A stretch of 61,588 bases of DNA from an uncultured Candidatus Altimarinota bacterium (GCA_913055215.1 CAJXJP010000002.1:1-61588), one strand, 5' to 3'. Shown: positions 16,534 to 61,511, counted from the stretch's first letter. Notes: a model not told the origin generated them from the letters alone. Program-made: numbers and translations.

Positions 16534-17718
16534 TTACATTTTTTTTCTTAAGAAAGCAGGAACATCTAAGTCTTCCCCATGATTATTTGATGCTTGTTGA
16601 GTTGATGGAATAACTCTTGAATCAGCTACTGATTTTCTCCCGAAAGGATTAACCGTTGTTGTTTCAGTTTTATTATCTTGGTAGTTTGCATTTGAAACTT
16701 CATCAAAACCTGTTGCACAAACAGTAATTTTCAATTCACCGTTATAATCTTCGTTAATAGTAGCACCAAAAATGATATTTGCATCAGAATCAACTGATTC
16801 AGTAATAATTTTTGCAGCTTCATCAACTTCGAACATAGATAGATCAGTACCACCAGTAATGTTGAATAATAGACCTTTTGCTCCAGCAATTGATAGTTCT
16901 AGTAATGGAGAGTCAATCGCAGCTCTTGCTGCTTCAACTGCTCTATTTTCACCTGAACCATAACCAATACCCATAAGTGCTGAACCAGCATTTCTCATAA
17001 CTGAACGTACATCAGCGAAATCTACATTAATCATACCTGGTTGAGTAATTAGATCAGAAACACCTTGTACACCTTGATTTAATACTTCATCAACAATTGA
17101 GAAAGCATCAAGAAGAGGAGTTTTTTTATCAATAATTGATAGAATTCTATCATTTGGAATAGTGATAAGAGTATCAACTTTTTCTTTTAAGTTGTCATAA
17201 CCGTCAAGTCCTTTTGCCATTCTGTTTTGTCCTTCAAAAGAGAATGGTTTTGTTACAACCCCAACAGTTAATGCACCAGCTTCTTTTGCGACTTCTGCAA
17301 CAACAGGAGCAGCACCAGTACCAGTACCACCACCAAGACCACAAGTAATGAAGATCATGTCAGCACCTTCTAGTGCAGCTTTAATTTCTTCTCTTGATTC
17401 TTCAGCAGCTTTTTTCCCAGTTTCAGGATCTGAACCAGCACCTAGACCATTCGTAATTATTTTACCAATATTTAGTTTTGTTGGTGCTAATGATGAGAAT
17501 AATGCTTGTGCATCAGTGTTGATAGAAATAAATTCTACTCCAGCTAGACCACCTTCGATCATTCTATTTACAGCATTTTGTCATCCTCCACCTACTCATA
17601 CAACTTTAATTTTTGCAACTGGTGAAATTGATGATGAAATATTTACTTCTTCAGGACCTGTTTCCATTGGAGCTGAACCTGATAATAGATTTTTTAATTT
17701 ATCTTCTCTTTGTGACAT
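16534..17718 (-). CDS. ftsZ: Cell division GTPase FtsZ
   Basis: A 394-residue tubulin-like GTPase that forms the Z ring. Seen: the nucleotide loop KVVGVGGGGQNAVNRM (two of the glycines are UGA), the tubulin signature [13 protein letters not shown], the T7-loop region [11 protein letters not shown], a variable linker and the C-terminal anchor peptide [12 protein letters not shown] that normally binds FtsA. The start at 17718 (MSQREDK) is set by UGA read-through; without it the glycine-rich loop is lost. It lies 37 bases after ftsA, forming an ftsAZ operon. Confidence 0.97.
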
Positions 17719-54732: not shown

Positions 54733-54763
54733 AAAAAGAAGCAATTATTTTTTGCTTCTTTTT
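54733..54763 (-). terminator. Terminator of the first ATP-grasp gene
   Basis: AAAAAGAAGCAA pairs with TTGCTTCTTTTT, overlapping the stop codon. Confidence 0.8.
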
Positions 54764-56097
54764 GGAGTAATCGTATGAGTGAAAGTTTTCACAATATTCA
54801 TAATGCTAATAAATTTAGACTCTTCATCAATATAAAGGAAATTTTTATAATTTCTTTTGATATATTTCATATCTCTATGAATTTGATTTAGATCTTCATT
54901 TTTTAATTTTATGGTAATGATTTTGATAAAACCATCTTTTGTAAGTCAGACTTTTTTTCCGATAAAGTTTTGAGGTTGTTCAATTTCATAAACAGAAGGT
55001 CTATATTTTACTCGTTGAATTAATTCTTCATTAAATCAAGTAAGTATCCCTTTGTAAGGAGCGTAAATATTTATTTTTATGATATTGTTTTTGAGTTTTT
55101 TTCTTGTTTGTTTCTTTCCAAGAACAAATTCATATAAATTAATACCATAGGCTTCACTTGTTAATTCTACCCTTCCTCATCAAATTCTTCAATTGATTTC
55201 AATCGTTTTTAATTTTCATTTTGTCGTTTTTTTGAACTCATGGTGAATAAAAGTATTTTTTATTCCACAAGCTTTTACTGTTTCTTGTACAAAGTTTTCA
55301 ATTTCTTTATCTTTAAATTTTTCTTCAACCGCAATTGAATGATGCATAATTCAATTAAAATAATCATCAATTCATAATTCTACACCAAGTTCAACATGAA
55401 CAGGGCGAGCAATCGATATTTCTCAACTTTCTGATACAAAATAATCAAGAGAAAACATTTCCCCATCAATATATTCTTCAGCTATAATCAGATCGCTATC
55501 AAATCACCTGTTTTGGCAATTTTCATGAAATTCTGTAAAGTGATATTTATATTCAGAAAAATCTTCTTTGTTATTGATCTTTATAACTCAAGCGCTTTGG
55601 ATTCAGTTTACGGGTTTGAGAATACAAGGAAGTCAGACCTTTTTTTCAAGTGTTTTGAAATTTAGGTTTTTTATGCAACTTTTTAAAAATTTGATTCCAT
55701 TGGTACATCCTCCTTTGTGTAAAAGTTCTCTTTGAATAAATTTGTTACGAAACATTTTTGTGTTATCGCAGGCTTTTTGTCAGATTTGCTTTTTGAGGTA
55801 ATTTGAAAGATTTATGAGGAGTTCGGAAGTTGTATTTATATACAAAATTTCATGTTTATCGCGTAACTCTAGAATCTGCTCAGTAATATGTTTTCTATTT
55901 TGATAAGAAAAAACCAGGATTCATTTTTCTTTGAGTTCTGAGATAAACTCTTCATCTTTTATAGGCTCTCATTTACAAAAAATGAGGTTATAAATCCCGT
56001 GTTTTTTGTGAAGTTTATGAAAAACTTCAATTTCATAATAAAAAACATCAGTCGTAAGTCGTGACTTTGACATTAAATGAATAATGCTCTGTTTCAT
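54745..56097 (-). CDS. ATP-grasp ligase A (peptide or amino-acid ligase of unknown substrate)
   Basis: A 450-residue ATP-grasp protein. ATP-binding Lys in LPCILKPVNGIQSAGVIKIN (about 160-180), the IIAEEYIDGEMFSLDYF strand, and the Mg-binding EINGRIGGGRVELTSEAYG loop match ATP-grasp ligases of the carbamoyl-phosphate synthetase/D-Ala ligase type. The N-terminal 110 residues form a pre-ATP-grasp domain. It is a paralogue of the protein at 58101, with similar motifs throughout, and lies divergent from the DUF1704 gene at 56256. It is much richer in UGA-Gly than its paralogue. It could form peptide bonds on a protein or small-molecule substrate; the acceptor is unknown. Confidence 0.88.
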
Positions 56098-56194
56098 TTT
56101 GTTATTTTAAGAGTAATGAGAAAATTACTTTTCTATTGAGTAAATCTAGACACTTTCCTCCATGTGAAGATTTGGTGAATAAATTATATTTCTT

Positions 56195-56223
56195 TTGACC
56201 AAAAATGCAAAATATGATACTAT
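56195..56223 (+). promoter_or_regulatory. Promoter of the DUF1704 gene
   Basis: TTGACC, 17-base spacer, TACTAT; about 32 bases upstream of the ATG. Confidence 0.55.
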
Positions 56224-56255
56224 AAAATATATTTTTATTAAAGAATTTTTCTTTT

Positions 56256-58061
56256 ATGTCTAACACGCAATGACATAATCAGACTAAAAAAATTGAGGAT
56301 TTAATTCATGAATTAAACACCTCTATTTTTGATGAAAAAATTTGGAAATCACAACATGTGTGGAAAATCGCAGAAGTAACCTATTCTTATGATAAAGAAA
56401 CCAATATCAATGAAACACTTTTTTGAAAAATTGGATGATTAAATCTTCGTGAATATAAGAAACTTTCAGCAGAAAAACAAACAAAAGTACTTCTGAAAGC
56501 AAGTGATACATTTCAAAAAATTATCAAAGAGAAATTAGCACTTATGAAAGATGCTCTCTATCAATTAAATAGTTCAGAATATTCTGAACTTTGAGAAGAA
56601 GAATTATTAGAAAAAGAAATATTTGAGAGTGCGGTAATTGAAAAAATGAATCTGTTAGAATATTGTATTCTTTCTCTTCCGTTTGAACTAGAAAAAGCTG
56701 GAATTCCGCTTGAATTGGATGAAGAAGAAATACCAGAATTAGAAAAAGCATTGTTGCAAATTGATTCAAATTTGTTTTGAGGATTAGTAAAAGATAATCC
56801 TGAAGAAGTAGAGCTATCTTATGATTATTTTAAACATATTCTATTAGAAAAAAAAGAGAATTTATCAAAAGAAGAATTACTCAGACTAGAGGGGTTTTTA
56901 CAAAAAGTAAAACCTCATCTTCCAAAGAATTATCAATTCAAAAAAAGAAAAAAAACACAAAAAATCGCAGGAAAATACCTTTCTTATGAGATTAATAGAA
57001 CTGATTATATTCTTGCATTTAACATGTTAGTTGATGCTTTTGGGAAAATGCACCATGTGGTAAAAAGTGATAAAACTGCCGGGAGTATTTCTGATGGACC
57101 AGAAGGAGTGTACTTCCCAATGAATGAAAAATTTAATACGATTACGATAGAAAGATTTTTTAAATTGTGAATGCATGAAATAGAAACTCACAGTGTAACG
57201 GATTATAATACAAAAGACCTTTTAGGAAATTTAAGAGGATCAAAAAGTACTGAAAAAGATGAATGAGTTGCTATTTTAATGGAACAACTATTCTTATATG
57301 GAAAAGAATTGCTTACTACAGATAAAGAAGGTCATCTATTAATTGATAAAAATAAAGTCCAAATTAATGGATATTTTATTAAAACATTAATGTGAGAGCT
57401 TTTAAATAATGAAGAATTCAGTGAATTCTTAGAACTATCAGAAAAAATAGACCCTGATATTATTTCACCGTTTGAGAGATACAAAAGGTTAAAAAGAAAT
57501 AATAGATCATGAGTTCAGCATAAAGATACGACTTATACGAGAGGCTTATTAAAGGCTATTAAGTATGTAAATCAATTCTATGCATCTGAAGGAAAAAAAT
57601 GAATTTCACCACTTGATATGTTTATTGGAAAAATCTCATTTGATGAAACAGAAAAACTAAAAAGATTAAAAAATCTTAAAAAACAAAGAGGAATAGAAAT
57701 AGAAGAATTATTACCAATATTTGTTTCTGATGCGGTTTATTTCGTAATTGAACATACTCTTGGTTGAGATGAAGAAAATATTTCAGAAAAAAACTTTTTA
57801 GAATATTTACAAGAAAAATATCCACTATTTTCATTTTCATGACAAATTGAAGCAGATTTATATTTTGCAGAAAATTCAAGAGTAAATGGGATTGCAAATA
57901 TTTTACTAAAAATAATTAGTAATCGTAAAGTTGATAATATTCTTATGGATGCAAATCCTCAGCAAAGAATGGTTTTAGAAAAAATTTTTCAAAATCAATA
58001 CGACCCAATTATTCATGCTGTTCATGATAACTTGGCAAGTCATAGGCAAAAACAAAATTAA
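56256..58061 (+). CDS. DUF1704 zinc carboxypeptidase (QEGLA / MATCAP-like family)
   Basis: A 601-residue soluble protein. The family signature is present: HEIETHSVTDYN with the HExxxH zinc motif at residues 307-312, and EKDEGVAILMEQL (Glu336, with Gly337 coded by UGA), which corresponds to the QEGLA motif. Human members of this family (MATCAP/TMCP) remove C-terminal Tyr or Glu from tubulin; bacterial members are uncharacterised. The N-terminal 240 residues are Glu/Leu-rich and helical. It lies between two ATP-grasp ligase genes. Motif match is clear; the substrate is not. Confidence 0.87.
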
Positions 58062-58095
58062 AAAAAACAAATCCTGTACAGGATTTGTTTTTTTT
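58061..58095 (+). terminator. Bidirectional terminator between DUF1704 and ATP-grasp B genes
   Basis: Perfect palindrome around CTGTACAG with A7 and T7 tails, directly after the DUF1704 stop codon, between convergent genes. Confidence 0.88.
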
Positions 58096-58100
58096 AATTT

Positions 58101-59441
58101 TTATGAATGTTTTACGGCTTCAAAAGCAGGTTTTCTTTTAGAATTATCAATTACTGGTAATTCTATATCTAATAATTTTTTATAATTTTTCATAATATAT
58201 AAAAAATCTTTTCTTACTTTTGCGTAATCTTTGTCTTGTAATTTAATAACTCAAACTTTAACAAAACCATCTTTTGTTAGACCAATTTCTTTCCCAACAG
58301 CAGATTCATCAGTTTCTACTTCGTAAGTTGTTTCCCTTTTAGAAATTTTTTCTAAAAGTTTTTCATTAAACTCAGTCAGTATACCACTTTCAGTAGCGTA
58401 GATATTTACAGCAATATTATTTTGTTTTAATATTCCAGGTTTTGTTTCTGAATTAACGGTTAATTCGTATAGATTTAAATCAAAAGCTTTTTTCATTACT
58501 TCTAGTCTTCATCCTCCGATTCTCCCGTTTAACTCAATAGTTTTAAATTCACCTTTACTATTAATTTTAATTTCATGGTGAACAAAAGTATTTCTAATTC
58601 CAGTTGCTTTCACAGTAGAATTAATAAATGTTTTTAATCTTTTTCATTTAAATTCATTTTGAGTTTTTTCAGTACAGATTCTTGCGATATTACAATAATC
58701 ATCAACTCCAATATCAACACCAAGTTTTACTTTTACTGGTTTTGACATAAGAACATTCCCCTCAAAATCAACATAATAATCAACAGAATACATTTTCCCG
58801 TCGATATATTCTTCAACAATAAGCATTTTGTTGTCTACCCCTCTGCTTTTTAGTCTTTCGTGAAAAACTTCATAGTGTGAGATATATTCTTCAAAATCTT
58901 CTCTGTTGTTAATTTTACCAACCCCTGAACTTTGCACCCCATCAACTGGTTTTATGATAAAAGGATAACCTACTTTTTCTTCCAATTCTTCTATTTGTAG
59001 GTCTTCTGGTGCTCCTTGAACATACTTAATTCCTAGTTCTGGATTATGATCTCTGATCATTTGTCTTTGAAGATATTTGTCTCTAAAAACATCAGGATCA
59101 TCTGAAAGAGGGTGTCCAAGTACTTCTTTTACTTCATTCATCACGTTTACTAGTAATTCCATTGGACTACTTACGTTAATGATTTCATATTCTTTTGAGT
59201 ATTCTAAAGCTTTTTCTTTTAATTCTTCTTTATTTGAATAGTTGCAGAAAACAATTCCGAACTTTTCTAATTTTGCTACTAATTCTATATATTCAATCTG
59301 TTCACCTTTATAAAAGATGATGTTTTTTACTCAGTACTTCTCCGAAATTTCTTCCATACTATCAATTTCCGCTCCAAACAGATCACTTTTCATTCTAATT
59401 TTTGTCAAAATGTGGATAATTGCTTTTTGGGATTGTGGCAT
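58101..59441 (-). CDS. ATP-grasp ligase B, paralogue of ligase A
   Basis: A 446-residue ATP-grasp protein. The same motifs as ligase A occur: YPFIIKPVDGVQSSGVGKIN, LIVEEYIDGKMYSVDYYV, VKLGVDIGVDDY and IELNGRIGGGRLEVMKKA. The C-terminal domain of about 130 residues (starting near NIAVNIYATESGILTEFNEK) is shared with A and contains GLTKDGFVKV. It is convergent with the DUF1704 gene across one terminator. ksgA is encoded 112 bases upstream on the same strand, so the two could be co-transcribed. UGA is rare here, in contrast with ligase A. Confidence 0.88.
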
Positions 59442-60452: not shown

Positions 60453-60485
60453 AAAAAAAGCTATTTTTATTTAAAAAATAGCTTA
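60453..60485 (-). terminator. Terminator of the MAM-like protein gene
   Basis: AAGCTATTTTT and AAAAATAGCTT arms with A7 on the left; overlaps the stop codon. Confidence 0.8.
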
Positions 60486-61511
60486 AATACTTGTAATTAT
60501 AACATTATCAATTCAGGCGTCTCATTGATAGCCAGAACCAGAAGTATAACGAATTCTAATTTTTTCTACGAGTTTATTAGAAATGTCGATATTTCCACTA
60601 TTTAACCATGCGTCAGTTTGATTTGTATGTTGCTGTCATGTGAGATTATATACATCTGTCCAAGTTCAATTATAAAGCGTTTCTACTATAAGAGTTCAGA
60701 TATTTCCTCAGTGCATATGATAATCGAAAGAAATACTTTGTGCTTGTCTAAAATTACTAGTTTCGATTGCAAAAACTTTGTTTGGATTATTTGGATTTGA
60801 TGTTTCTGGAAATATATAATAATTTCATGTTGAAGCAGAATTTGGTCCCGTTCCAGATGAAGGTGTTCCCGTAGTTTGAACAAGGAAATTTGCATCATTT
60901 CATGCAGAATCGGACCAATTTCAAATATTGTTAGATTCAAATCATTCATTATAAACCCCATTTACTCATGTTCATAAAACAGGAGTAATCACAGAAATTA
61001 AGTTGGCTCAATTCCCTGTCCATACGCTACTTAATAATCATCAATTATTTACTACGAGGTCATAGGTTTGTGAATTATTCCCAGTTGTAATATTTGCAAT
61101 AAGTTCGCTCGGAGAATTTGCACTCGTTGAATGTATTGTTCCGTCAAAAATTGGGATATTTACTTGAGAATTTGGACTAAAATTTTCTCCAGTAATTGTA
61201 ATGTTATAATTAGTATTTGGAGATAAGAACACAGTCGAATCAAGAGAAATATAAGGGTAATTTCAGTTCCCCCCTGTACTATTAATTTCTAAATTATTTC
61301 CATTTGGAGTAATAGTTATATTGGATCAAGCAATTATTTGTGTACTTTCAAGCTTGTTGTTTAACGAACTAACAAGTTCATTCCATTTTGTAGCACTAAT
61401 GATATCTCAATTTTCTGCAAGCAATCAATTCCAACTATAGGTTATGGTTGCGGTAGATATAAGAAAAATAAAGAAAAAAGATATTTTATAAAAGAAAGAT
61501 TGTTTTTTCAT
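60483..61511 (-). CDS. Secreted protein with C-terminal MAM-like jelly-roll domain
   Basis: A 342-residue exported protein (signal peptide to about residue 27). An ISATKWNELVSSLNNKLES segment near 38-56 is followed by an IPT/Ig-like region with TGENFSPNSQVNI and a C-terminal domain (about 190-342) that follows the MAM plan: FESNNIGNWSDSAWND, TGPNSASTGNYYIFPETS, SISFDYHMHGGNIGTLIVE, DAWLNSGNIDISN and GDAGIDNVIITSI. The match to MAM (meprin/A5/mu) is by motif order and not proven. About 12 UGA-Gly codons break the reading frame. It is the last complete gene before the window edge. Confidence 0.8.

Follow-up and report, generated by a model that had tools for sequence, protein, structure and literature searches.

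Why does a gene for a DUF1704 (MATCAP-family) peptidase lie between two paralogous ATP-grasp ligase genes in an uncultured Candidatus Altimarinota bacterium? The cluster occupies positions 54745-59441 of the window, the whole stretch of 61,588 nucleotides that was analysed (GCA_913055215.1 CAJXJP010000002.1:1-61588), which belongs to a genome of 1.39 Mb in 83 contigs. The ATP-grasp fold is established as a catalyst of amide bond formation via an acyl phosphate, and DUF1704 is a family of zinc peptidases that, in animals and ciliates, shorten the tails of tubulin. The pairing of the two is real and recurrent, and is not due to chance. At an even chance, the cluster is a ligase/peptidase module that would make and trim the same short peptide, a variant of the RimK-RimB, RloC-RloA, and GshB-QEGLA loci. 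The catalytic motifs are intact in all three enzymes, and recurrent linkage, proteins that carry both domains, and partner exchange support the pairing of a ligase with a peptidase that matches it.

The linkage was traced in 60 relatives and the window genome. One of the two ligases, LigB, is the orthologue of a ligase encoded between ksgA and lepA in relatives, and a strong gene of its subfamily (LIG4) is present in 13 genomes of the sample. All 13 harbor a metallopeptidase gene, which lies within ∼6 kb of the ligase in 12. The partner is a short DUF1704 form in ten genomes, the long DUF1704 in the window genome, and an N-formylglutamate-amidohydrolase-like (FGase-like) enzyme in two; the long DUF1704 and the FGase-like genes are directly adjacent to LIG4. 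The short form, which is related to the window protein and carries HExTH and EEG, adjoins LIG4 or lies within ∼6 kb beyond lepA in nine of the ten genomes having both. In the remaining genome (G004), it is on a different contig from the ligase, which is near a contig end. Fisher's test on the joint presence of LIG4 and short DUF1704 yields p=2e-7, not corrected for phylogeny. The Pfam profile of DUF1704 (PF08014) is present in 37 of the 60 relatives, and 29 of them have DUF1704 proteins of 765-861 amino acids (aa). Two of these long proteins were scanned with Pfam, and each consists of an N-terminal ATPgrasp_ST domain (alpha-L-glutamate ligase-like) fused to a C-terminal MATCAP domain. The window genome has no such fusion by PF08014 and no FGase gene by PF05013. 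More elaborate rows also occur: two M29-like peptidase genes stand in a row with LIG4 and short DUF1704 in G018 (L060:5123-10574), and G019 (L099:7700-12531) has a row of DUF1704, ATP-grasp, FGase-like, and a second DUF1704.

The sequence-only reading had suggested that ATP-grasp genes be sought around DUF1704 in other genomes of the candidate phyla radiation (CPR), and the association does recur there. PF08014 is found in 63 of 287 phylum genomes. The 40 phylum loci analysed comprise five fusions that match both the ATPgrasp_ST and the DUF1704 profile, 34 stand-alone genes, and one DUF1704 undetected by the profile; 24 of the 34 stand-alone genes are within 5 kb of an ATP-grasp gene, and a frequent gene order is 7TM_transglut, ATPgrasp_ST, DUF1704. 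Random control DNA taken from genomes of this phylum sample (20 regions, 285 kb in all) contains no ATP-grasp gene, a control that is fair only for the ATP-grasp subfamilies covered, because their profiles were built mostly from DUF1704 neighbours in the family. In Rhizobiales, genes for FGase, QEGLA (a DUF1704 protein), and a GshB-like ligase are on one strand within 500 bp at 80 of 80 loci, and several plasmids are annotated with the same arrangement; in one case, reverse-transcriptase genes are inserted between FGase and QEGLA. Published data sets contain the pair as well. In Photobacterium, neighbouring locus tags for QEGLA/COG3930 and GshB are up 27- and 38-fold at low salinity (PMC10308900), and a published table for Vibrio vulnificus has neighbouring QEGLA/COG3930 and glutathione-synthetase tags (PMC3091676).

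These counts bear on whether DUF1704 is simply a chance insertion between two ligases to which it is unrelated. It stands on the opposite strand, most relatives have no long DUF1704 at this position, and its only close orthologue, at the same site beside ligB in G030 (L051:8891-10698), is split into two frames by decay or assembly error. Partner swapping, the presence of both domains in one protein, the phylum-wide enrichment, and the unbroken Rhizobiales series nevertheless make chance insertion highly improbable.

The peptidase fold is exchanged around the ligase, with DUF1704, FGase-like enzymes, and a retropepsin each taking the place. The retropepsin case is in the window genome itself, in which another contig (C45; L265 5871-9482) has a 7TM/RloB-like gene, an ATPgrasp_ST gene, and a RloA/RimB-type retropepsin in a row. 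Since ATPgrasp_ST is beside DUF1704 in relatives, its partner is thus a retropepsin here and DUF1704 there. The RloB-like protein of this trio is rich in glutamate with PKD/7TM regions, and the retropepsin is anchored at its N-terminus. In Pseudomonas aeruginosa, RloA cleaves polyglutamate, and a strain that lacks RloA has a growth defect under hypo-osmotic conditions, which is rescued when rloB or rloC is deleted (PMC12239564). By analogy with RloA-RloC, DUF1704 would cut what the ligase makes, an indirect argument and the main one for opposition between the two activities.

A peptidase might instead mature a product, in that the ligases would assemble a precursor peptide or amide longer than the end product, a metabolite or wall component, and DUF1704 would cut it back to size. 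Unrelated peptidase folds (DUF1704, FGase-like, M29, retropepsin) accompany ATP-grasps, as in peptide biosynthesis clusters, and lytic transglycosylase genes adjoin long DUF1704 genes in relatives. Such sequential biosynthesis is still rather unlikely: the cluster has no further biosynthetic or export gene, its divergent and convergent layout suits separate control, and the genetics of RloA-RloC, the best studied analogue, indicate opposition.

The layout is visible only under the appropriate genetic code. Table 11 yields fragments, whereas table 25, in which TGA encodes glycine, gives three complete open reading frames that span exactly 54745-59441, all situated between lepA and ksgA:

54745-56097, minus strand: LigA, ATP-grasp_4 amide ligase paralogue (450 aa, 16 TGA read as Gly; PF13535, 83.1 bits).
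55171-55200, minus strand: LigA magnesium-binding/catalytic motif EINGRIGGGR, in columns aligned with BL00235 and BacD.
56098-56255, no strand assigned: intergenic region of 158 bp between the divergent LigA and DUF1704 genes, with promoter-like sites on both strands.
56256-58061, plus strand: DUF1704/MATCAP-like zinc metallopeptidase of a long divergent subfamily (601 aa, 12 TGA read as Gly; PF08014, 33.0 bits).
57174-57191, plus strand: HEIETH, the zinc-binding/catalytic HExxxH of DUF1704 (residues 307-312), conserved in homologues.
57255-57272, plus strand: KDEGVA, with the third zinc ligand (EEG motif of TMCP/MATCAP; DEG at residues 335-337), conserved in homologues.
57477-57545, plus strand: RYKRLKR...HKDTTYTRG block common to human MATCAP (RAKRG..KD..Y..G), with a presumed role.
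58062-58100, no strand assigned: bidirectional intrinsic terminator between the converging DUF1704 and LigB genes (39 bp, perfect inverted repeat, T/A runs).
58101-59441, minus strand: LigB, ATP-grasp_4 amide ligase (446 aa, 4 TGA read as Gly; PF13535, 86.9 bits).
58506-58535, minus strand: LigB magnesium-binding/catalytic motif ELNGRIGGGR, from the sequence and aligned with BL00235 and BacD.

LigA and DUF1704 diverge, and DUF1704 and LigB converge on a terminator, so the cluster is neither a single transcript nor an operon. The number of promoter-like sites in the 158-bp region is not above chance. The use of TGA for glycine is uneven, with 16 of 29 glycines in LigA, four of 29 in LigB, and none in nearby ribosomal genes. 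PADLOC returns no match, so there is no sign of a known defence system. Further along, positions 60483-61511 encode a protein with an N-terminal signal-like stretch and a C-terminal MAM domain (42.6 bits), which is familiar chiefly from proteins of animals.

Two paralogous ligases around a DUF1704 protein with intact HEIETH and DEGVA motifs, arisen by duplication, were the core of the sequence-only reading, and each of these points holds. Both ligases pass the Pfam ATP-grasp_4 profile (cut-off 27 bits) and are 42% identical. The tree places LigA as sister to the ten LigB orthologues sampled, all of which group without it (support 99/96), and this position makes the duplication old; among the sampled genomes, only the window genome has kept the pair. 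K164, E290, E303, N305, and R307 are invariant across 13 LIG4 sequences. A profile of these sequences finds BL00235 (6.5e-20) and then BacD (9e-10), both L-amino acid ligases, as the nearest solved structures, and the acidic residues and arginine of their catalytic regions are retained in the aligned LigA and LigB. The RimK profile (TIGR00768) gives 18.4 and 26.0 for the ligases against a cut-off of 143.4; the BacD equivalog (NF053745) gives 25.3 for LigB against a cut-off of 850, and LigA is not among the matches listed. A plasmid search with LigB returned remote ATP-grasps only, with less than 27% identity among the matches listed.

The DUF1704 protein passes PF08014 (cut-off 27 bits) and falls below the QEGLA equivalog TIGR02421 (27.9 against a cut-off of 338.65). 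As a single sequence it matches no solved structure, and its N-terminal half has no Pfam match. A profile of 14 long DUF1704 homologues matches human MATCAP KIAA0895L (7z5g) at E=8e-6, as does the QEGLA profile at 3e-19, and the alignments to human MATCAP superpose HExxxH (HEIxTH), EEG (EEGLA), and RxKR...G..KD..Y..G. The activity of TMCP1 requires both glutamates, that of HExxxH and that of EEG, and TMCP enzymes cleave Tyr and Glu from C-termini and also trim chains of polyglutamate (PMC10499314). The window protein retains the residues of HExxxH and EEG that are required in TMCP1. Long DUF1704 genes at the loci L068-L073 are in some cases tandem, often lie between dnaA and an adenylate-kinase-like gene, and are frequently beside a lytic transglycosylase gene. 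Viral contigs contain no DUF1704 relatives.

LigA and LigB would probably each activate a carboxylate as an acyl phosphate and join it to an amino acid, as ligases of the L-amino acid type do, and their products are probably short peptides that are made or extended. DUF1704, as a predicted zinc carboxypeptidase, would take the C-terminal residue or residues off that same peptide, and the balance between ligase and peptidase would set how much of it there is or how long it becomes. The reaction, the shared product, and a peptidase that opposes rather than matures are all inferred.

The product could also be a protein. The sequence-only reading had proposed a system that adds and removes a peptide tag, with tubulin tyrosine ligase as the model for the ligases and FtsZ as a candidate target. 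The functional coupling of ligase and peptidase is borne out by neighbourhoods, fusions, and partner swapping; the protein target and the reversible cycle are not. In a tagging cycle, the ligases would attach one amino acid or a short peptide to the C-terminus or a side chain of a protein, from which DUF1704 would remove it. There are precedents in RimK/RimB on ribosomal protein S6 and TTL(L)/TMCP on tubulin, relatives of MATCAP act on protein tails, and ligB lies between ksgA and lepA, both related to the ribosome. That synteny may be inert, however, and LIG4 is nearest to L-amino acid ligases of small peptides, with a RimK score of 26 against 143. The tubulin analogy is not supported for the ligases, as neither matches the tubulin tyrosine ligase family (PF03133, Pfam) at E<=1. 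No target was found; FtsZ (window 16534-17718) was considered and rejected, since it ends in the usual C-terminal peptide with nothing unusual at its C-terminus. Tagging is thus unlikely, and the product is more likely a small peptide, which may be acidic or under osmotic control.

Several observations count against a peptide-making and -trimming module. The DUF1704 gene is on the strand opposite both ligases and outside their operon, and six relatives have a second LIG4 paralogue with no peptidase nearby. Across the phylum, a LIG4-like gene adjoins DUF1704 in only three of ten genomes having both (G150, G264, and G315), and the ATP-grasp profiles behind the linkage count are not a neutral sample. 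Structure prediction gave unusable models, with a mean pLDDT of 38 for AlphaFold of DUF1704 with 16 rhizobial homologues and 42 for LigB aligned with LigA only.

Comparison with known systems places the module among, and apart from, its analogues. Like RloABC of P. aeruginosa (PMC12239564), it would combine an ATP-grasp ligase, there RloC, with a dedicated peptidase, there RloA, in one process, and CPR ATPgrasp_ST and 7TM/RloB-like genes occur with DUF1704 at the place of RloA. The window cluster departs from RloABC in that its ligases are of the ATP-grasp_4 type, its peptidase is a zinc enzyme rather than a retropepsin, and a 7TM protein is lacking; the trio of 7TM/RloB, ATPgrasp_ST/RloC, and retropepsin RloA is absent from it. 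The FGase-QEGLA-GshB operon of Rhizobiales and other Proteobacteria likewise places a DUF1704 peptidase beside an ATP-grasp ligase, and two relatives pair the LigB orthologue with an FGase-like enzyme. Its ligase, however, is of another ATP-grasp subfamily, and the window has neither an FGase nor the three-gene operon. RimK-RimB also joins an ATP-grasp ligase with a peptidase, which add and remove glutamate residues, whereas LigA and LigB are outside the RimK family by score, the window peptidase has another fold, and nothing points to S6 as the target. BL00235 and BacD are the nearest solved relatives of LigA and LigB, with conserved acidic and arginine catalytic columns, yet both ligases lie below the BacD equivalog cut-off and the window has no bacilysin-type cluster. 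The window peptidase belongs to the same family as MATCAP/TMCP, with HExxxH, EEG, and the same R-x-K-R...KD..Y..G block, but it is very distant (33 bits) and shows no sign of a tubulin substrate.

RimK-RimB and RloC-RloA already exemplify systems in which an ATP-grasp ligase has a matched peptidase, and annotated genomes show QEGLA paired with GshB. To these the present analysis adds the variant with LIG4, the replacement of one peptidase fold by another around a single ligase, and a count across the phylum. No paper was found that gives bacterial DUF1704 members a function, and none with both DUF1704 and ATP-grasp was found in the open literature searched. Iyer et al. in 2009 reportedly surveyed ATP-grasp neighbourhoods with peptidases.

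In the broadest view, bacterial MATCAP-family peptidases would be general erasers of what ATP-grasp enzymes write, and zincin, retropepsin, and FGase folds would replace one another freely in the eraser role; the window would tag proteins via two ligases that differ in specificity, and the pair of tubulin ligase and TMCP in eukaryotes would have descended from a bacterial writer-eraser pair. This extension is very doubtful. More narrowly, the proteins with both domains, the operons, and the exchange with the rlo retropepsin predict that bacterial DUF1704 cuts the product of the neighbouring ATP-grasp ligase, and the linkage points to a peptide linked to osmotic stress as that product. In ultra-small bacteria that use code 25, it is unexpected to find a ligase maintained next to ksgA and lepA whose peptidase can be replaced.

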